Origin: Stutzerimonas stutzeri
GTDB taxonomy: Bacteria > Pseudomonadota > Gammaproteobacteria > Pseudomonadales > Pseudomonadaceae
Direction: 5' to 3'
DNA: 64,000 bases
NCBI RefSeq assembly: GCF_015291885.1
Contig: NZ_CP036186.1
Location: 2,369,001 to 2,433,000 of the forward strand
Of the stretch, positions 49,954 through 60,829 are shown in pieces; position 1 is the stretch's first letter; each line of letters opens with the position of its first letter. The translations under genes were made by a program, and so were the position numbers. The notes under the pieces were generated by a model. It was not told the DNA's origin. It worked only from the letters and a program-made list of their open reading frames with translations, and did not search any database.

Positions 49954-50799
49954 TCAGCGGAGCAGGTGACGTGCCAGCCACGGCCCCTGGTGCAGCAGCG
50001 CTGTGTGAACCTGCACCAGTTCGGCGCCGGCATCCATACGCGCTTGCAAATGGTTCGCCGTCTGGATGCCACCAACAGAGATCAATGCCATGCCCTGGCC
50101 GCAAAAGCGCCGCAAGCTCTCGATCTGTTCACAAGCTAGTGCCTGTTGTTTCGAGTCCTGCCAGGCGCGGTAGCGCTCGCGCGTCGCTGGTGGTCCTGGA
50201 TCATGTGCAGCTAACAGCCCGTCGAACTTGAGGTCAAGCAACATGCTGGCTAGCAAAAAGGGAACCTGCTTTGGCAGGCAGCGTAGCTTCGCTATCAGCG
50301 GTACCTGGCGTTTGCCCTCCAGATTCAGCTGTCGATGTTCCTCACGTAGGGCAGCGAGGAGGTTGCGCAGCCGCACGGCATGAGAGAGCAGCGGTGCGCT
50401 GGCCGGGCCGATCAGGTTCAGTACCAGATAGTCCGCATGGGGCCAGGCTTTGCGCAGCATGGCGCAGGTATCCGCTGCTGATCGTCGCGCATCCAGGGTC
50501 AGGTTTATTCCGAGGCGTGCCTCGCCGCGAGATATCGGCTCCAGTTGCGCTAATCCATCCGCGGTCAGGCTACCGATCTCGTTGAAGCCGAATCCCAGCG
50601 CAGCCACCCGCCGCGCGAGACGCCCGTTGCGATCGTAGCCGGCGGCGATACCTAGTGGGGACGGAAAGCTCAGGCCCATCACGGTAAGGGGGCGGCTCGG
50701 CACGGTCCGCGGCAGACGACAGGCGACATCGGCCAGAGTTAGTGACAGCTGCTGTGCCAATGAGCGGCGTAACGCGTGCAGGGTGCGTCTGCTATCCAT
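49954..50799 (-). CDS. Dihydroorotate-dehydrogenase-like flavoprotein lacking catalytic residues
   Basis: The 281-residue protein has the DHODH TIM-barrel outline: FPSPLGIAAGYDRNGRLARR, GFGFNEIGSLTA and the FMN-phosphate end region LISVGGIQTANHLQARMDAG. It is shorter than PyrD (~340). The orotate-binding NRMGFNN segment is missing, with the chain going straight from EPIS to RLGINL. The position of the catalytic Ser motif SSPNTPG reads IGPASAP, and the conserved TNTT is AAHDPG. It therefore cannot be a normal PyrD and is probably a repurposed FMN protein. The start overlaps the SerC-like stop by 8 bases; it is the last gene of the pqqA2 cluster. Confidence 0.8.
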   Translation of the reverse strand: MDSRRTLHALRRSLAQQLSLTLADVACRLPRTVPSRPLTVMGLSFPSPLGIAAGYDRNGRLARRVAALGFGFNEIGSLTADGLAQLEPISRGEARLGINLTLDARRSAADTCAMLRKAWPHADYLVLNLIGPASAPLLSHAVRLRNLLAALREEHRQLNLEGKRQVPLIAKLRCLPKQVPFLLASMLLDLKFDGLLAAHDPGPPATRERYRAWQDSKQQALACEQIESLRRFCGQGMALISVGGIQTANHLQARMDAGAELVQVHTALLHQGPWLARHLLR

Positions 50800-51892
50800 G
50801 CTTACGCTCGAAATCAGTCATGAATTCCACCAGGCGCGCCACTCCGTTCAGAGGCATGGGGTTGTACAGGCTTGCTCGTATACCGCCGATCGCAGCGTGG
50901 CCGCGCAGGTTGGCCAGGCCGTTACGCTCGGCCAGGGTCAGAAAGGTGTCAGTCAGGCCGGGCTCGGTGAGTTGGAAACAGACATTGATTGATGATCGGT
51001 CTGCGGGGAATTGCGGACATTGGTAGAAGTCGCTGTGGTCAACGCAGCCGTACAAAAGGCGACTTCTTTGCTGAGCTGCAGCAGCCATCGCCGGAACGCC
51101 GCCGTTGCGTCGTATCCAGCGCAGCATCAGCCCGGTCACATAGAGGGCGAAGGTTGGCGGAGTGTTGAAGCGGCTCTGCTGCTCGGCCTGCATTGCATAA
51201 CTGAACGCGGCTGGCAGGCCGGGTGGAGGCGCTCGCAGAAGATCGTTGCGGATGATCACCAGGCACAGCCCGGCCACGCCGAGATTCTTTTGCGCGCTGG
51301 CATAGATCAGGCCGAAGCGCTCGAGCGGAAGCGGCCGGGTAAGAAAGTCGGAGGTCATGTCCGCCACCAGCGGCACTTTCAATTCGGGAAATTCATGTAG
51401 CTGCAGCCCGTTACCCGTCTCGTTGCTGGTGACATGGCAGTAGCCAGCCTGAGGATCAAGCTGCCATTGAGCGGTCGGGGGCAGGGCGGTGAAATCCTGT
51501 GCTGCACCGCTGGCGATGATATTGACAGCGCAGTGCCGACGCGCCTCGCCAATAGCCTTGCGTGCCCAGTATCCGCTTTCCAGGTAATCGGCACGTTGAC
51601 CAGGCTGTAGCAGGTTGAGGGGCAGCAGGCCGAACTGTGCAGATGCACCGCCCTGCATGAAGAGCACTTGGTAGCTGCACGGAATCGCCAGCAGCGCGCG
51701 AAGGAGCTCTTCAGTCTCGGCCATCAGCCGCTTGAAGGATGCGCTGGTGAATGGCTGCTCCAGTATGGAAAAACCCGAACCACACCAGTCAGGCAAATCT
51801 TCGCGGATTTGCCCGAGCACCTCTGCCGGCAACATCGCGGGGCCAGCGGCGAAGTTGTAGTTTGTGTGTCGCTCAGAAGAGGTGCAGACCAT
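50792..51892 (-). CDS. Phosphoserine-aminotransferase-like PLP enzyme (SerC paralogue)
   Basis: The 366-residue protein aligns with SerC throughout: NYNFAAGPAMLPAEVLGQIR, FMQGGASAQFGLLPLNLL, YCHVTSNETGNGL and the PLP lysine (Lys202) in GLIYASAQKNLGVAGLCLVI. The core motifs are kept, so it should be an active aminotransferase using phosphoserine or a similar acid. Housekeeping serC normally lies near pheA/gyrA, so this is probably a second copy specialised for this cluster. It overlaps the membrane-protein gene by 20 bases upstream and the DHODH-like gene by 8 downstream, showing it belongs to the same transcript. Confidence 0.88.
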   Translation of the reverse strand: MVCTSSERHTNYNFAAGPAMLPAEVLGQIREDLPDWCGSGFSILEQPFTSASFKRLMAETEELLRALLAIPCSYQVLFMQGGASAQFGLLPLNLLQPGQRADYLESGYWARKAIGEARRHCAVNIIASGAAQDFTALPPTAQWQLDPQAGYCHVTSNETGNGLQLHEFPELKVPLVADMTSDFLTRPLPLERFGLIYASAQKNLGVAGLCLVIIRNDLLRAPPPGLPAAFSYAMQAEQQSRFNTPPTFALYVTGLMLRWIRRNGGVPAMAAAAQQRSRLLYGCVDHSDFYQCPQFPADRSSINVCFQLTEPGLTDTFLTLAERNGLANLRGHAAIGGIRASLYNPMPLNGVARLVEFMTDFERKHG

Positions 51893-52370
51893 GAGCGCCG
51901 GCCGCCATCAGGAACAAGAGGGGAAAAGAGAGGATGGTGTTGCTACGCGACGAGAGGAAGGTTATCCGTGAGCACCGGACCCGCTCCTCCAGCGTTGCCG
52001 GAACAAAGCCGAGTAGCTTTTTCTGATGAGGCCAAAGTACCAGCCAGAGGTTGAGCAGCATGAGGGTGCCAATCCATGCGCCAAGTCCGATCACTGCCAA
52101 CGGACCTTGCAGCAGCAGGGCATCGACCAGCCAGCCACGCTGCCAGAGCATGAACATGCCAGATACCCAGACCACCACGGAGGCGTAGCGAAAGATGCCG
52201 TGTTCACGCTTTATCCGTACCTCGAGGTCGCGATTCAGCGTGGCGGTATCGATGCCGTTCTGCAGCGGGACGAAGCGCGGGTTCTGAATGAAGTTGGCGT
52301 AGTTGTGCCCAACCCAAACCAGCGCGAACAGCAGATGCGCGTAGCGGGCCAGCAGATCGAGCATCGTCAT
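51873..52370 (-). CDS. PuuD N-terminal-like four-span membrane protein
   Basis: The 165-residue protein has four hydrophobic segments and sequence typical of the Urate_ox_N/PuuD membrane domain: LLARYAHLLFALVWVGHNYA, NLWLVLWPHQKKLLGFVPAT and SSRSNTILSFPLLFLMAAGA. In PuuD this domain precedes a cytochrome c; here it stands alone. Conserved His residues in the spans (RYAHLLF, VGHNYAN) could hold haem, so an electron-transfer role is possible. Its ATG overlaps the stop of the 33-aa peptide gene (ATGA), so translation is coupled. Confidence 0.8.
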   Translation of the reverse strand: MTMLDLLARYAHLLFALVWVGHNYANFIQNPRFVPLQNGIDTATLNRDLEVRIKREHGIFRYASVVVWVSGMFMLWQRGWLVDALLLQGPLAVIGLGAWIGTLMLLNLWLVLWPHQKKLLGFVPATLEERVRCSRITFLSSRSNTILSFPLLFLMAAGAHGLHLF

Positions 52371-52468
52371 GCGCCCACCAGCCAGTAACGCAGCAGCAGG
52401 TAGCAGCCGAGCGTCAGCGTGAGACCTGCGCTGAGGGTGCCGCCGAACGAGTCATGGGGCAGTTTCAC
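52367..52468 (-). CDS. 33-aa membrane peptide between pqqE2 and the PuuD-like gene
   Basis: A GTG at 52468, inside the end of the pqqE-like gene, opens a frame beginning MKLPHDSFGGTLSAG and continuing with one hydrophobic span, LTLTLGCYLLLRYWLVGA. The stop overlaps the next ATG as ATGA. Overlap at both ends, hydrophobicity and a complete frame support a real small gene bridging the operon; without it there would be an 81-base gap. It may be a small subunit of the PuuD-like membrane protein. GTG start and short length keep this a moderate call. Confidence 0.55.
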   Translation of the reverse strand: MKLPHDSFGGTLSAGLTLTLGCYLLLRYWLVGA

Positions 52469-53597
52469 GTTCCACCCCCTGACTTGCCTGTCGGGCGATC
52501 AGCGTGCCTTGCGGGCGCGTGGCATCCTGCGCCAGATCAACGGCCTGACGGACCAGCTGATGATGCGGCGACTTGCTGCACGCCGGGTCGGTATTGGCAC
52601 CGTCGCCCGTGAGCAACAGAGCCTGACAGCGACAGCCACCGAAGTCCTTTTCCTTCTCGTCGCAGCTGCGGCAGGGCTCGGGCATCCAGGTATCGCCGCG
52701 ATAGAGATCGAACACCGGCGAGTCGTGCCATATCTGCTCCAGGCGTTGCTGGCGCACGTTGGGAAAGGTGATGTGCTTGAAGTTGCTGGCTTGCGAGCAG
52801 GGCAGCACGTTGCCGTTGGGCGCGACGGTCACGTGAATGGCGCCCCAACCATTCATGCAGGCCTTCGGGCGGCCTTCGAAGTAGTCCGGGATGACGAAAA
52901 AGATGGTCAGCCGCTCACCGAAGCGTTCGCGCGCGGCATGCACTTGGCCCTCGGCGCGCTGCAGCTCGGCGTGCGTCGGCATCAAGGCGTCGCGGTTGAG
53001 CAGGGCCCAGTTGTAATACTGCACGTTGGCCAGCTCCAGGTATTCCACGCCCAACTCGACGGCAAACTCTATGATGTCCGGCACCTGGCCGATGTTCTGC
53101 CGGGTGATCGGTACGTTGAGCACCATGGGAAAGTCCATTGATTTGATCAGCTGTGCCATGCCGAGCTTGCGCTCCAGCACATCGACTCCGGCCAGCTGGC
53201 GTGCCACGTCATGGTCGGTGGACTGAAAGCCGAGCTGAATGTGGCGCAGCCCCGCATCCTTCAGGGCGCGCAGACGCGCTTCGGTCAGTCCTATGCCCGA
53301 GGTGATCAGGTTGGTGTAATAGCCCATGCGGTCGGCTTCGGCGACCAGCGTTTCGAGGTCCTTGCGCAGGGTGGGCTCGCCGCCGGAGAAGCCGATCTGC
53401 ACCGCACCCATGGCGCGGGCCTGAGCCATCACGTCGATCCACTCGTCTGTGCTGAGCTCGTCCCGACGGTAATCAGCGAAGTTGCGTGGATTACTGCAGA
53501 ACACGCACTGCAACGGGCATTGATATGTCAGCTCCAGCAGCAGCCAGACCGGGTTGCCGCTGCCATCAAGCCTTAGCTCGGATCCAGCCCTTGGCAT
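52452..53597 (-). CDS. PqqE-like radical SAM peptide cross-linking enzyme (second copy)
   Basis: The 381-residue protein has the radical SAM triad C27-C31-C34 in TYQCPLQCVFCSNP and the SAM GGEP motif in QIGFSGGEPTLRKD. The SPASM auxiliary-cluster cysteines include PKACMNGWG, the [15 protein letters not shown] block and DPACSKSPHH. All key residues of PqqE are kept. PqqE forms a C-C bond between Glu and Tyr of PqqA when bound to PqqD. Similarity to the canonical PqqE at 59675 is clear but only moderate, so this is an old paralogue, not a recent duplication. Its start overlaps the pqqD-like gene by 32 bases. Confidence 0.9.
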   Translation of the reverse strand: MPRAGSELRLDGSGNPVWLLLELTYQCPLQCVFCSNPRNFADYRRDELSTDEWIDVMAQARAMGAVQIGFSGGEPTLRKDLETLVAEADRMGYYTNLITSGIGLTEARLRALKDAGLRHIQLGFQSTDHDVARQLAGVDVLERKLGMAQLIKSMDFPMVLNVPITRQNIGQVPDIIEFAVELGVEYLELANVQYYNWALLNRDALMPTHAELQRAEGQVHAARERFGERLTIFFVIPDYFEGRPKACMNGWGAIHVTVAPNGNVLPCSQASNFKHITFPNVRQQRLEQIWHDSPVFDLYRGDTWMPEPCRSCDEKEKDFGGCRCQALLLTGDGANTDPACSKSPHHQLVRQAVDLAQDATRPQGTLIARQASQGVERETAP

Positions 53598-53859
53598 GGG
53601 ACACCTCCAGGAAATTCAGAACGCCTGCACGGATCGCGTCGATGGCGGATGCGTTGTAGTCGCAACCCAGCTGCTCGATCAGCTCGACGACGCTCGTGCT
53701 GCCATCGCAGCGCTTGAGAATGTCGCCAGCGGTGGCATTGAGCTTGACGATGCCTTCGGGGTAGAGCAGCACGTGAGCCTGCTGGGAATCCTCCCAGCGG
53801 AACAGAAAAGGTGGGCGGATCTCGTAGCGGTCGGTCGGCGCTATGGTTGTTGTTTTCAT
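53566..53859 (-). CDS. PqqD-like peptide chaperone (second copy)
   Basis: The 97-residue protein matches Pqq[41 protein letters not shown] and AGVLNFLEVSHAKGW. PqqD is the RiPP recognition element that presents the precursor peptide to PqqE. A GGAGC ribosome-binding site precedes the ATG at 53859. It lies 55 bases after the pqqA-like gene and overlaps the pqqE-like gene, as in standard pqq operons. Canonical pqqD is at 59425. Confidence 0.92.
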   Translation of the reverse strand: MKTTTIAPTDRYEIRPPFLFRWEDSQQAHVLLYPEGIVKLNATAGDILKRCDGSTSVVELIEQLGCDYNASAIDAIRAGVLNFLEVSHAKGWIRAKA

Positions 53860-53877
53860 CGTTCAGCTCCTCGCGGA

Positions 53878-53908
53878 ACCGGCGTGGGACGCATGGCCCG
53901 ACGCCGGT
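53878..53908 (-). terminator. Hairpin between the second pqqA and pqqD (attenuator-like)
   Basis: ACCGGCGT and ACGCCGGT form an 8-bp stem with a 15-base loop, seven bases after the pqqA-like stop. No T-run follows. The canonical pqqA is also followed by a hairpin (57540-57561), so both precursors may be expressed above their enzymes. Confidence 0.5.
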
Positions 53909-53914
53909 CAAGGC

Positions 53915-53989
53915 TCAGCGCACGTAGACGTACGCGGTGACTTCGAAGCCCAGACGCAGATCGCAGAAGTCCGGATCGATCCACTGCAT
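53915..53989 (-). CDS. Second PqqA-like precursor peptide, 24 aa
   Basis: The ATG at 53989 follows AAAGGAG at ideal spacing. The peptide starts MQWIDPDFCDLRLG and ends FEVTAYVYVR. It keeps the Glu16-Val-Thr-x-Tyr20 core (EVTAY) where PqqE makes its Glu-Tyr cross-link in PqqA, and the RxGFEVT recognition stretch. It differs from canonical PqqA by an N-terminal MQWIDPDFC with a Cys and an extra Tyr after the core (YVYVR). It leads the seven-gene minus-strand cluster. I infer it is a real substrate of the neighbouring PqqD/PqqE-like pair. Confidence 0.88.
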   Translation of the reverse strand: MQWIDPDFCDLRLGFEVTAYVYVR

Positions 53990-54400
53990 GGCGTATCTCC
54001 TTTCATGTTGTCGTTGGGAAATGCGGTACCGCAGCTCGAAGCTAAGGCGCTTTGCAGAGGCGTCTAATAAGACTTTGGGGTCGGTTTTGCAGGCTTTTGG
54101 TCGTGCTTTTCTTGCGCTCGGAGAATATTTGCGCTGTGGTTCTGCGCCCTTGTCCGGGGTCATTTTTGCCGCGTGGATGAGGGGCTAGCCTGTGCGGCTT
54201 TTTGGTCGAGAAACGCGCGTCGGAGATAGGCTAGAAGCCGCGATACAGCGGGCTGTGCGCCTTGGCATCTACTACCAAATGAGGAGTCCTCCGCTGCCAT
54301 GGGTGCATACCGGAGCCTGGAGCGGGCTGCCTAAGATCGGTCCATGCCCTGCGCACTTCCCGGCGCAGGCTCCGACAAGCAGAAGAAAGAGAGGCCCATC
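53990..54400. promoter_or_regulatory. Divergent control region between second pqqA and exaC
   Basis: These 411 bases separate the minus-strand pqqA2 cluster from exaC and hold no credible gene. T-rich tracts at 54070-54170 (TTTTGCAGGCTTTTGG, TTTTCTTGCG) probably belong to the pqqA2 promoter. AGAGAGG at 54388-54394 is the exaC ribosome-binding site. Short TACCAAATGAGGAG-like sequence near 54270 resembles an RBS but leads nowhere convincing. I could not find a clear activator site. Confidence 0.4.
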
Positions 54401-56064: not shown

Positions 56065-56163
56065 ATGGCCATGCAAGACCAGCCATCGCTGGCATCGAAC
56101 TCCCGCCCGCACAAACCCCTCACATCAGCATGTCCCCAGTGCTGCAAAGATGAGGAGATCACC

Positions 56164-57282
56164 ATGTCGCAACTGCTCGAGCCCTATTCGCTGAAACACC
56201 TGAGCCTGCGCAATCGTGCGGTCGTCGCGCCCATGACCCGGGTCAGCGCCGAAGCCGAGGGCACGGCCAACGAGCTGATGCGCGATTACTACGCGTCGTT
56301 CGCCAAGGGCGGCTTTGGCCTGATCATCAGTGAGGGCATTTATACCGATACGGCCTACAGCCAGGGCTACTTCAACCAGCCGGGTCTGGCCACAGAAGCT
56401 CATCGAGATAGCTGGCGTCTGCCAGTCGAGGCCGTACACGAAGGCGGGGCCGCTTTTATCGCCCAGCTCATGCACGGTGGCGCGCAGACCCAAGGCAACA
56501 TCCACCATGCCCGGCATGTCGCGCCCTCGGCAGTGCAGCCTAACGGATCTCAGCTGACGTTCTACGGTGGCGAAGGGCCCTATGCGACTCCCGCACAAAT
56601 GGGCGAGGACGACATCCAGGAAGCTATCGCGGGCTTTGCACTAGCTGCTCGCCATGCGCGAGCGGCCGGCTTCGATGGCGTCGAGCTGCACGGCGCCAAT
56701 GGTTACCTGTTGCACGAGTTCATCAGCGCCGAGTTCAACCAGCGCGACGATCACTGGGGTGGCGATTTCCTGGATCGCTTGCGCATGCCGCTGGCTGTCA
56801 TCAGCGCGGTACGGGCGGAAGTCGGCAACGATTTCCTGGTGGGTATACGCCTGTCCCAAAGCATGGTGAGCGACAGCAGGCTGAAGTGGGAGGGTGGGGT
56901 AGAAGAGGCGCAAACCCGTTTCGCTGCCCTGGCAGAAGCCGGCCTCGATTATCTGCACGTCACCGAACCCGAGGCTGCTGCACCGGCTTTCAGCGACGGG
57001 CCGAGCTTTGCAGCGATTGCCAAGAGCAGCGTCTCGCTTCCCGTGATCGGCAACGGCGGCATCGTGAGCGGTGATCAGGCCGACGAGCTGCTTGCTCGCG
57101 GAGATATGGACCTGGTGGCCGTTGGCAAGGCTGCGCTGGCCAACAACGACTGGCCGCTGCGGATCCAGCAGGGCTTGCCACTAAGTGATTTCGACAGCGC
57201 GATGTTCGCACCGATGGCGACCATCACCAACGAGTTGGCGTGGCGCAACGCCAATGGTCGGCCCGCGCTGCATGCGAGTTGA
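56164..57282 (+). CDS. Old-yellow-enzyme family NADH:flavin oxidoreductase
   Basis: The start at 56164 gives 372 residues beginning MSQLLEPYSLKHLSLRNRAV. It is an FMN TIM-barrel of the OYE family: VAPMTRVSAE at strand 1, LMHGGAQTQGN, the substrate-binding pair in GVELHGANGYLLHEF, FNQRDDHWGGDFLDRLRMPL, and the C-terminal FMN-phosphate motif VIGNGGIVSGDQA. Such enzymes reduce activated C=C bonds. It lacks the C-terminal iron-sulfur domain of larger relatives. GGAG precedes the start. Its position between exaC and pqqA may be incidental. Confidence 0.88.
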   Translation: MSQLLEPYSLKHLSLRNRAVVAPMTRVSAEAEGTANELMRDYYASFAKGGFGLIISEGIYTDTAYSQGYFNQPGLATEAHRDSWRLPVEAVHEGGAAFIAQLMHGGAQTQGNIHHARHVAPSAVQPNGSQLTFYGGEGPYATPAQMGEDDIQEAIAGFALAARHARAAGFDGVELHGANGYLLHEFISAEFNQRDDHWGGDFLDRLRMPLAVISAVRAEVGNDFLVGIRLSQSMVSDSRLKWEGGVEEAQTRFAALAEAGLDYLHVTEPEAAAPAFSDGPSFAAIAKSSVSLPVIGNGGIVSGDQADELLARGDMDLVAVGKAALANNDWPLRIQQGLPLSDFDSAMFAPMATITNELAWRNANGRPALHAS

Positions 57283-57461: not shown

Positions 57462-57533
57462 ATGTGGACTAAACCCGCCTTCACCGACATGCGTATTGGT
57501 TTCGAAGTCACCATGTACTTCGCTAACCGCTGA
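57462..57533 (+). CDS. pqqA: PQQ precursor peptide PqqA (canonical)
   Basis: The 23-residue peptide begins MWTKPAFTDMRIG and ends FEVTMYFANR, the standard PqqA with cross-linked Glu15 and Tyr19. AGAGG lies at good spacing before the ATG. It starts the pqqABCDEH operon and is followed by a strong hairpin, so PqqA is likely made in excess over the enzymes. Confidence 0.97.
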   Translation: MWTKPAFTDMRIGFEVTMYFANR

Positions 57534-57580: not shown

Positions 57581-58492
57581 ATGTTCATCCGTATTCTCGG
57601 TTCCGCCGCGGGCGGAGGCTTTCCGCAGTGGAACTGCAACTGCGCCAATTGTGCGGGCCTGCGCGCCGGGACACTCAATGCCAAGGCCCGTACCCAGTCC
57701 TCAATCGCCATAAGCGACAACGGTGTTGACTGGATTCTGTGCAATGCTTCGCCGGACATCCGCGCGCAGCTGGAATCCTTTCCAACCCTGCAGCCAGCTC
57801 GAGCACCGCGTGATACCGCGATCGGCGCGATCGTGCTACTGGACAGCCAGATCGACCACACCACTGGCTTGCTGACCTTGCGCGAAGGCTGCCCACACGA
57901 AGTCTGGTGCACAGAAATGGTCCATCAGGACCTGACTACCGGTTTCCCGCTGTTCAACATGCTCAAGCACTGGAACGGTGGGCTGAAGTGGAACGCCATC
58001 GGGCTGACCGGCAGCTTCACGATTCCCTGCTGCCCGAACCTGCATATCACGCCGATCCCGCTGCGCAGCTCAGCGCCGCCGTATTCGCCGCACCGCAATG
58101 ACCCGCACCCCGGCGACAACATCGGCTTGCTGATCGAAGATCGCAAAACCGGCGGCACGTTGTTCTATGCACCTGGGCTGGGCAAGGTCAGTGACGAGCT
58201 GCTCGACATCATGCGCAAGGCCGATTGCCTGCTGGTCGACGGAACACTCTGGCGCGACGACGAGATGCTCGTGCGCGAGGTCGGCACCAAGCTCGGCAGC
58301 GAAATGGGGCACCTGCAGCAGAGCGGTCCAGGCGGCATGATCGAGGTGCTCGATGGCATGCCCGCCGTCCGCAAGATTCTCATCCACATCAACAACACCA
58401 ATCCGATCCTCGATGAGGATTCCGTCGAGCGCGAAATCCTCGGTGAACACGGAATCGAAGTTGCCTTCGACGGCATGAACATCGAGCTATAA
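57581..58492 (+). CDS. pqqB: PqqB, metallo-hydrolase-fold protein of PQQ synthesis
   Basis: The 303-residue protein begins [20 protein letters not shown], unmistakable PqqB, with the zinc-binding cysteines in [12 protein letters not shown] and His/Asp motif [18 protein letters not shown]. It hydroxylates the cross-linked Glu-Tyr product. It has no counterpart in the minus-strand pqqA2 cluster. It starts 48 bases after pqqA, beyond the hairpin. Confidence 0.97.
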
Positions 58493-58506
58493 CGTGGCCT
58501 AGTGAA

Positions 58507-58532
58507 CGCGATGCGACTGAAGTCGCATCGCG
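58507..58532 (+). other. Intercistronic hairpin between pqqB and pqqC
   Basis: CGCGATGCGAC and GTCGCATCGCG form a perfect 11-bp stem with a TGAA loop, 15 bases after pqqB. No T-run follows; it may stabilise the processed message. pqqC starts 48 bases later after AAAAGGAAAG. Confidence 0.55.
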
Positions 58533-58579
58533 GGTCGAGTCACGCACATCGGAATGTTTAGAAAAGGAAAGACACTGCC

Positions 58580-59332
58580 ATGATCCTGCCAGCCATGAGC
58601 CCCGCGGAATTCGAACAAGCGCTGCGCGCCAAGGGCGAGTACTACCATATCCATCACCCGTTTCACCGGGCCATGTACGCAGGGCAGGCGACGCGCGAGC
58701 AGATTCAGGGCTGGGTCGCCAATCGCTTCTATTATCAGGTGTGCATTCCGGTGAAGGACGCGGCGATCATGGCCAACTGTCCGGACCGCGACACGCGCCG
58801 GGAGTGGATTCAGCGCATCATCGACCATGATGGAGCCCCGGGCGAAGAGGGCGGCATTGAAGCCTGGCTACGGCTGGCCGAGGCCGTCGGGCTGGAGCGC
58901 GAACAAGTGCTGTCGCAGGAACTGGTGCTGCCTGGGGTGCGTTTCGCCGTGGATGCCTACGTCAACTTCGCTCGTCGCGCCAGTTGGCAGGAAGCCGCCA
59001 GCAGCTCGCTGACCGAACTCTTCGCCCCGACCATCCACCAGTCGCGTCTGGACAGCTGGCCGCAGCATTATCCGTGGATTGATGCATCGGGTTATGACTA
59101 CTTCCGCAAGCGCCTGAAGGAAGCGCGTCGTGATGTCGAACACGGCCTGCGTATCACCCTGGATCACTACCGCACCCGCGAGGCGCAGGAGCGCATGCTG
59201 GAGATCCTCCAGTTCAAGCTCGACGTGTTGTGGAGCATGCTGGACGCCATGAGCATGGCCTACGAGCTGGATCGCCCGCCGTACCATACCGTGACCCGCG
59301 AACGTATCTGGCACAAGGGAATCAGCTTCTAA
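58580..59332 (+). CDS. pqqC: PqqC, cofactorless oxidase that completes PQQ
   Basis: The 250-residue protein has full-length PqqC sequence: [40 protein letters not shown] and [20 protein letters not shown], covering the active-site His and Tyr residues. It catalyses ring closure and the eight-electron oxidation of AHQQ to PQQ. No paralogue accompanies the second pqqA cluster. Confidence 0.97.
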
Positions 59333-59424
59333 TCACAGGCTCTTGTAGGTTGGGCTTCAGCCCGCCGCCAGCGAGCAAAATGATTCGGCCAGGCTGCCAG
59401 CCTGCCTTTGGCGAGACATTGACC

Positions 59425-59703
59425 ATGAGCGACATCCAACTAACCCAGATTCCCGTTTTTCGACGTGGCTACCGCTTTCAATGGGAACCCGCGCAGAACT
59501 GCCATGTGCTGCTCTACCCGGAAGGCATGATCAAGCTCAACGAGAGCGCTGCGGCGGTGCTGACTGAAGTCGACGGGACACGTAGCGTCGGTGCCATAGT
59601 GGCCGATCTGCAGGCTCGCTATCCCGAGGCTGAAGGGATTCAAGAAGATATCGTCGCGTTCCTGGAGGTTGCCGTTGAACGGTTCTGGATCGAGCTTCGC
59701 TAA
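59425..59703 (+). CDS. pqqD: PqqD, precursor-peptide chaperone (canonical)
   Basis: The ATG at 59425 gives 92 residues with the typical [20 protein letters not shown] and [20 protein letters not shown]. It binds PqqA and delivers it to PqqE. The gene overlaps pqqE by 29 bases. A 92-base gap from pqqC contains ordinary spacer. Confidence 0.95.
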
Positions 59704-60829
59704 ACCCGGCTACGAGCCCGGCCCGCCGCTCTGGCTGCTGGCGGAGCTGACTTATCGTTGCCCGTTGCAATGCCCGTATTGCTCCAATCCGCTGGATTTC
59801 GCCCGCAGCCATGAAGAGCTGACTACCGCCGAGTGGATCGAGGTGTTCCGCCAGGCACGCGAGATGGGCGCGGCCCAGCTGGGCTTCTCCGGTGGCGAAC
59901 CGCTGGTACGTCAGGACCTTGCGGAGCTGATCGAGGCGGCGCGAGGACTCGGCTATTACACCAACCTGATCACGTCGGGCATCGGCCTGACTGAAGATAA
60001 GATCGCCAGCTTCGCTGAGGCCGGGCTGGACCATATCCAGATCAGCTTCCAGGCCGCCGACGAAGAAGTGAACAACCTGCTCGCCGGCTCGAAGAAGGCT
60101 TTTGCACACAAGCTGGAAATGGCTCGCGCAGTTAAGAAGCACGGCTACCCGATGGTGCTCAACTTCGTCACCCATCGGCACAACATCGATAACATCGACC
60201 AGATCATTCGTCTGTGCATCGAGCTCGAAGCCGATTTCGTAGAACTCGCGACCTGCCAGTTCTACGGCTGGGCTGAACTTAATCGCGCCGGACTGCTACC
60301 GAGCAAGGAGCAGCTGATACGTGCCGAGCGCATCACCAACGAGTGGCGCGACAAGCTTGCCGCCGAAAACCATCCGTGCAAACTGATCTTCGTCACGCCC
60401 GATTACTACGAGGAGCGCCCGAAGGCCTGCATGAACGGTTGGGGCAACCTGTTTCTCGACATCACCCCGGACGGTACGGCGCTGCCTTGCCACAGTGCGC
60501 GGCAGTTGCCGGTGGAGTTTTCCAACGTGCGCGAGCACAGCATCGAGCACATCTGGCGTCATTCCTTCGGCTTCAACAAATTCCGCGGCTATGACTGGAT
60601 GCCGGAGCCGTGTCGCAGCTGCGACGAGAAGGAGCGGGACTTCGGCGGCTGCCGCTGCCAGGCCTTCATGCTCACTGGCGACGCTGCCAACGCTGACCCC
60701 GTGTGCAGCAAGTCGGCACACCACGGCAAGATCCTTGCGGCTCGCGATCAGGCGGATCACGGCGCGCTGGGGCTCGATCAGCTGCAGCACCGCAACGAGA
60801 AGGCCTCCAAACTGATTCTGAAGGTATGA
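59675..60829 (+). CDS. pqqE: PqqE, radical SAM Glu-Tyr cross-linking enzyme (canonical)
   Basis: The TTG at 59675 is chosen because GGAGG lies six bases upstream; the TTG at 59669 would abut it. The product of about 384 residues has [20 protein letters not shown] with the radical SAM triad, [11 protein letters not shown], and SPASM cysteines ([36 protein letters not shown]). It matches PqqE of pseudomonads along its length. Its stop overlaps the pqqH ATG. Confidence 0.95.

Follow-up and report, generated by a model that had tools for sequence, protein, structure and literature searches.

A second pqq-type cassette in Stutzerimonas stutzeri is a candidate oxygen-independent module for PQQ or a closely related quinone

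The window analyzed here, a 64,000-nucleotide stretch of Stutzerimonas stutzeri DNA (contig NZ_CP036186.1, positions 2,369,001 to 2,433,000), carries a minus-strand cassette in which second copies of pqqA, pqqD and pqqE (pqqA2, pqqD2 and pqqE2) are followed by genes for a 33-residue microprotein, a PuuD-like membrane protein, a SerC-like pyridoxal 5'-phosphate (PLP) enzyme and a protein resembling dihydroorotate dehydrogenase (DHODH). We propose, with a probability of roughly 60%, that this cassette is an O2-independent module for pyrroloquinoline quinone (PQQ) or a quinone closely akin to it, induced at low oxygen and kept beside the canonical route. This proposal rests on the FNR/Anr boxes found in relatives, on the narXL-ubiT neighborhood in Marinobacter and on a paper from 2025; the window holds what appears from its sequence to be the Stutzerimonas member of the module, in which the FNR site is weak. 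The initial annotation, made from the window alone, had favored a different molecule derived from a ribosomally synthesized and modified peptide, or a membrane redox cofactor, and the same three lines of evidence speak for an O2-independent counterpart of PQQ synthesis instead.

The paper in question describes the same cluster in Hyphomicrobium denitrificans (pqqAED-puuD-serC-pyrD, Hden_0548-0553), next to a separate canonical pqq operon, and its authors speculate that the cluster completes PQQ synthesis without oxygen (PMC12423496, Mol Microbiol 2025). Its list of carriers names Stutzerimonas stutzeri, Halomonas sulfidovorans, Methylophaga nitratireducenticrescens and Azoarcus sp. DN11, and it cites work in which P. 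aeruginosa and K. pneumoniae, having only the canonical genes, made no PQQ anaerobically. The likeness to our cassette lies in the gene content, i.e. pqqA, pqqD, pqqE, puuD-like, serC-like and pyrD-like genes together and apart from a canonical operon. The gene order differs, being A-E-D in Hyphomicrobium and A-D-E here, and the Hyphomicrobium report adds that transcripts of Hden_0551-0553 are lowered in sHdrR/SoxR regulator mutants, together with denitrification genes. We found no experimental test of the cassette in the open-licence literature. Both the cassette and the idea of O2-free PQQ are thus already in print; what is new here is the FNR/Anr box, the narXL-ubiT context, the active-site losses and the conserved 33-residue microprotein, and section 2.9 of PMC12423496 makes no mention of an FNR box, this peptide or active-site changes.

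Gene content and joint inheritance of the cassette

All seven open reading frames were confirmed on the minus strand at the positions that the initial annotation had given them:

53915-53989, minus strand: pqqA2, a 24-residue precursor, MQWIDPDFCDLRLGFEVTAYVYVR, with E-x3-Y and the C-terminal sequence RLGFEVTAYVYVR
53566-53859, minus strand: pqqD2, a predicted peptide chaperone matching the PqqD profile
52452-53597, minus strand: pqqE2, a radical S-adenosylmethionine (SAM)/SPASM protein of the Glu-Tyr cross-linking family, cluster cysteines present
52367-52468, minus strand: gene for the 33-residue microprotein, with a GTG start, one hydrophobic stretch and the motif PHD[SA]-x2-G
51873-52370, minus strand: PuuD-like membrane protein, matching part of Urate_ox_N, with invariant His12, His22, His57 and His160
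50792-51892, minus strand: SerC-like class V PLP enzyme, phosphate-binding residues gone
49954-50799, minus strand: DHODH-like protein, keeping several residues of the flavin mononucleotide (FMN)/phosphate site and lacking the NRxGFNN segment and TNTT

Every junction from pqqD2 onward overlaps, as had been claimed: by 32 nucleotides between pqqD2 and pqqE2, 17 between pqqE2 and the microprotein gene, 4 between that gene and the PuuD-like gene, 20 between the PuuD-like and SerC-like genes and 8 between the last two. The overlaps start only at pqqD2 because a gap of 55 nucleotides separates it from pqqA2. Profile searches place PqqA2 in TIGR02107 (32.1 bits, cut-off 20) and PqqE2 in TIGR02109 (501, cut-off 381), while PqqD2 passes TIGR03859 (79.4, cut-off 46) and misses the stricter NF002535 (84.2, cut-off 101). 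The SerC-like enzyme likewise passes NF003764 (444, cut-off 253) and fails TIGR01364 (409.5, cut-off 443.6). The PuuD-like protein matches Pfam Urate_ox_N (40.6, cut-off 26.9) and no NCBIfam profile, the DHODH-like protein passes Pfam DHO_dh and stays below every NCBIfam DHODH cut-off, and the 33-residue peptide matched no family in these searches. None of the seven proteins matched PqqB or PqqC, which upholds the earlier statement that the back half lacks both and sets the cassette apart from canonical pqqABCDE, with which it shares the PqqA, PqqD and PqqE families.

The earlier claim that the front half holds the residues needed for a Glu-Tyr cross-link also stands. Like the canonical pathway, the cassette has E-x3-Y in its precursor (EVTAY in PqqA2, EVTMY in canonical PqqA), a PqqD, and a PqqE with both radical-SAM and auxiliary-cluster cysteines; the ten cysteine columns (three radical-SAM, seven auxiliary) are invariant in 27/27 aligned PqqE rows. 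PqqE2 and the genome's own canonical PqqE share 52% identity, and in a midpoint-rooted tree the 23 cassette rows, both plasmid copies described below included, separate from four canonical rows with 100/100 support. Across the 59 loci compared (53 of them distinct, the other six being repeat fetches of genomes already counted), the PqqA2 C terminus RLGFEVTAYVYVR occurs in 58, or 52 of the 53 distinct ones, the exception being L060. The last 13 residues are invariant in all 58 loci where PqqA2 was found.

The distribution of these genes indicates that the seven are inherited as one unit, because three of them across the genus and two across the Marinobacter family were never found apart. At identity floors of at least 84% for PqqE2, at least 87% for the PuuD-like protein and at least 52% for the DHODH-like protein, all three genes were found in the identical 31 of 56 genus genomes and in none of the other 25; the DHODH-like gene and pqqE2 were found in the same 10 of 151 Marinobacter-family genomes. 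Separate occurrence of the front and back halves would, by the initial annotation, have spoken against its reading, and no such case was seen among the genes followed in either set. This joint occurrence rules out that the halves are unrelated neighbors.

Within the wider family the PuuD-like gene was present in 34/398 genomes, namely the 31 of the genus plus G058, G074 and G108, each of which has the complete cassette. A scan of named genomes returned 31 loci, all from Pseudomonas or Stutzerimonas and all with identical gene order, and two alphaproteobacterial plasmids, from Acidibrevibacterium and Methylovirgula, carry the cassette as well. Decay was seen in individual genomes: a search of G044 (L060) yielded no pqqA2, and exaC there runs directly into pqqD2; the DHODH-like gene is broken across two frames in G043; pqqD2/pqqE2 are shortened in G018; and both the SerC-like and DHODH-like genes are split in G879. 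Two of the 25 cassette-free genus genomes hold scars, a DHODH-like fragment in G030 and SerC-like plus DHODH-like fragments in G038. These scars adjoin exaC (L058 8567-8764; L059 8292-8784), and the two decayed loci were excluded from the residue, PqqA2 and 33-residue peptide counts. Two peptidase genes lie near the cassette in other carriers: an M48 metalloprotease gene (L202 14423-15601) follows it on the mobilizable Acidibrevibacterium plasmid and is a candidate protease for the peptide cleavage that the cassette otherwise lacks, and a PqqF-like M16 peptidase (L139 4134-6590; TIGR02110, below cut-off) lies about 1.5 kb from it in G108.

Promoter and genomic neighborhood

The FNR/Anr consensus is TTGAT-N4-ATCAA. 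We matched the 250 bases preceding pqqA2 to it in 51 distinct regions, 22 from outside Stutzerimonas and 29 from within it. Sixteen of the 22 contain a perfect 10/10 box, with 9/10 in three, 8/10 in one and 7/10 in two; among 2200 dinucleotide shuffles of the same regions, 2 score 10 and 28 score 9. The box lies at -173 to -178 in Pseudomonas and G108, at -217 to -219 in Marinobacter and at -108 on the Acidibrevibacterium plasmid, and a perfect box elsewhere in the locus was found in 2 of the 22 loci. Regions upstream of canonical pqqA (n = 30) score only 6-7, a control that is ill matched because 27 of the 30 come from Stutzerimonas. A strong Anr box in Stutzerimonas was ruled out by scores at the level of shuffles. 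The site at the aligned position nevertheless keeps [TA]TGAC-N6-CAA in 29/29 distinct Stutzerimonas regions, and this core and the aligned position are what supports the degenerate site of the window. Two promoter features were recorded:

54150-54163, minus strand: degenerate FNR/Anr-like site ATGACCCCGGACAA, aligned with the perfect TTGAT-N4-ATCAA boxes of other Pseudomonas; its own score is 6/10, no better than shuffles
54061-54105, minus strand: conserved leader block (ACCAAAAGCC...CCCAAAGTCTTATTAG) upstream of pqqA2, with ACCAAA and CCAAAGTC-TATTAG

An ACCAAA block also occurs in the majority of the Marinobacter loci displayed, and the leader block is a possible second regulator site.

In 9/10 Marinobacter loci, matches to narX, narL and ubiT are located upstream of the cassette, in most cases immediately adjacent to it. 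These names derive from one locus, G691, in which NarL and UbiT score above the NCBIfam cut-offs and NarX below; narH, narI, nosZ, nrdD and nrdG, which all pass their cut-offs, are found there in a span of about 25 kb around the cassette. The tenth locus (L177) adjoins the canonical pqq operon. On the Methylovirgula plasmid pHY1, a gene for a Crp/Fnr family regulator (L203 9143-9829) precedes pqqA2.

In the window, the canonical operon lies about 3.5 kb from the cassette, consistent with the earlier figure of less than 4 kb, and it is on the opposite strand, as is exaC:

57581..60829, plus strand: canonical pqqB (at 57581), pqqC (at 58580), pqqD and pqqE (at 59669), the partner route, with the pqqA motif near 57491

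Between exaC and canonical pqqA lies a gene of the old yellow enzyme family (56065-57282), whose best NCBIfam match, below cut-off, is the mycofactocin old yellow enzyme. Canonical pqqE accompanies the cassette in 31/31 genus genomes, in 10/10 Marinobacter-family genomes and in G108, and pqqB and pqqC are present in 6/6 cassette genomes tested. The PqqC matches of G691 and G708 each show a single in-frame TAA within the alignment, which may be just the match overrunning its stop.

Altered enzymes and conserved membrane proteins

Residues were compared in 51 different SerC-like and 51 different DHODH-like sequences. For the former we used E. coli SerC numbering and took His41, Arg42 and Arg329 to be phosphate-binding and Lys198 to be the PLP lysine. 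The SerC-like enzyme is 47% identical to the SerC of its own genome and retains the Lys198 and Arg335 positions in 51/51 sequences, whereas the phosphate-binding set is lost: Phe replaces His41 in 50 (one gap), Thr, Ser or Gly replaces Arg42 in 50 (one gap) and the Arg329 position is Arg in 0/51. The copies on both plasmids show the same pattern. Retention of the PLP lysine and Arg335 alongside loss of the phosphate-binding residues makes it likely that the enzyme acts on an amino acid other than phosphoserine.

The DHODH-like protein is homologous to class 2 PyrD, whose numbering we assume here, and retains AAG-D, the VGG glycine and, in 51/51, Lys217. It differs in lacking the NRxGFNN segment in 51/51 and the TNTT motif, with His (40) or Phe (11) in place of Asn246 and Asp in place of Thr247 in 51/51. 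The residue at the catalytic-Ser position varies, being Gly in 29 sequences, Ser in 9, Ala in 8 and others in five, although the alignment of this loop is uncertain. The plasmid copies are shorter, at 235 and 234 residues, and that of Methylovirgula lacks the Asp motif. By alignment, then, both proteins have lost specificity-determining residues, for phosphoserine in the one case and for dihydroorotate in the other. Spare housekeeping copies are ruled out as an explanation by these losses and by the presence of a separate SerC and a separate PyrD-type reading frame in the genome. The earlier judgment that simple redundancy with the canonical operon is unlikely also stands.

All 57 PuuD-like relatives scanned match Urate_ox_N, and His12, His22, His57 and His160 are invariant; the protein is a possible haem binder. 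PuuD itself is described as an eight-helix membrane protein that oxidizes urate and carries a cytochrome c domain (PMC4562309). The PuuD-like protein shares the membrane domain family with it but lacks the eight-helix and CXXCH cytochrome c fusion, having 165 residues, aligning to positions 152-238 of the 295-position profile and containing no CXXCH. A sequence search of the PDB for the family gave no match. Another PuuD-like membrane family, 29-39% identical, occurs in 98/390 order-level genomes, and none of its six fetched loci (L144-L149, of the 98) has pqqA, pqqD or pqqE matches nearby. On the strength of these six loci, we rejected the idea that the PuuD-like protein is a common membrane protein present here by chance. 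The 33-residue peptide was found in 53/59 loci (51 by its motif and two more by inspection), corresponding to 47/53 distinct loci, and its frame is present in the Acidibrevibacterium record, where no gene is annotated.

Proposed pathway, alternatives and meaning

In the pathway that we propose, PqqD2 and PqqE2 would cross-link the Glu and Tyr of PqqA2, a step suggested by the family membership of PqqE2 and needing no O2, and a shared protease would release the cross-linked pair. The PuuD-like protein, perhaps with the 33-residue peptide, would then oxidize the ring with water as the oxygen source, passing electrons to the respiratory chain and replacing PqqB, which uses O2. The SerC-like enzyme would work on an alpha-amino group of this pair. 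Provided that it binds FMN, the DHODH-like protein could dehydrogenate the N-C(COOH)-CH2 ring edge, which has the atom pattern of dihydroorotate, and would take the place of the O2-using PqqC. Both nitrogens might be retained if the transaminase moved the Glu-side amine to a ring carbonyl and the ring closed at a higher oxidation level, which is speculation.

Several observations weigh against an O2-independent PQQ module. A transaminase is expected to strip a nitrogen that PQQ retains, and FMN binding by the DHODH-like protein is uncertain. The 33-residue peptide is missing in 6/53 distinct loci, five from Marinobacter and one on the Methylovirgula plasmid. Common descent links the 22 box regions, which represent about four lineages, L177 and L203 have no good box, and the Stutzerimonas regions (n = 29, window included) score 6-8/10, the same as shuffles. 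The neighbors of the Stutzerimonas cassette are exaC and the canonical operon. Canonical pqqE is also frequent without the cassette (21/25 genus and 80/141 Marinobacter-family genomes), so its co-occurrence with the cassette is weak evidence.

The nitrogen problem is the starting point for the idea that the Glu-Tyr cross-link leads to a different quinone or heterocyclic cofactor, since a transaminase would remove the amino group that PQQ keeps. The PLP lysine and Arg335 position retained in 51/51 without the phosphate-binding residues fit this idea, as does the invariant PqqA2 tail AYVYVR in place of MYFANR; yet E-x3-Y is retained, none of the lineages inspected showed a new dehydrogenase within the cassette, and the surroundings seen include genes for PQQ and alcohol oxidation and, in Marinobacter, for denitrification. 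We regard it as rather unlikely. Unlikely too, in our estimate, is a specific form of it in which a new PQQ-like redox cofactor would arise by O2-free ring oxidation with water at the membrane, removal or transfer of one nitrogen by the transaminase and flavin-dependent ring dehydrogenation, and would serve alcohol oxidation during denitrification. That the cassette merely boosts the cross-linked precursor, with canonical PqqB and PqqC finishing the molecule and the remaining proteins accessory, would suit the presence of canonical pqqE in every cassette genome tested and of pqqB and pqqC in all six, but leaves the joint retention of the puuD-like, serC-like and DHODH-like genes and the FNR box unexplained. 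Precursor supply would also leave the O2 use of PqqB in place. PqqC, too, is described as O2-using (PMC12423496), and we hold this explanation to be improbable. Far less credible still is a modified peptide for signaling or metal binding with no tie to redox cofactors: the invariance of the last 13 PqqA2 residues would agree with it, but canonical PqqA is equally invariant in the same loci, the enzyme families are oxidative and profile searches found no exporter-like gene among the seven.

Denitrifying alcohol and methanol oxidizers need PQQ without O2, yet the canonical route ends at O2-using PqqC. If the O2-independent reading is correct, the module would close this anaerobic gap and give the cofactor a second route. 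It would likewise contribute two altered enzymes, labelled in RefSeq as phosphoserine transaminase and, in one plasmid record of the two, as dihydroorotate oxidase. The published speculation becomes directly testable through the joint inheritance, the FNR box and the active-site changes.

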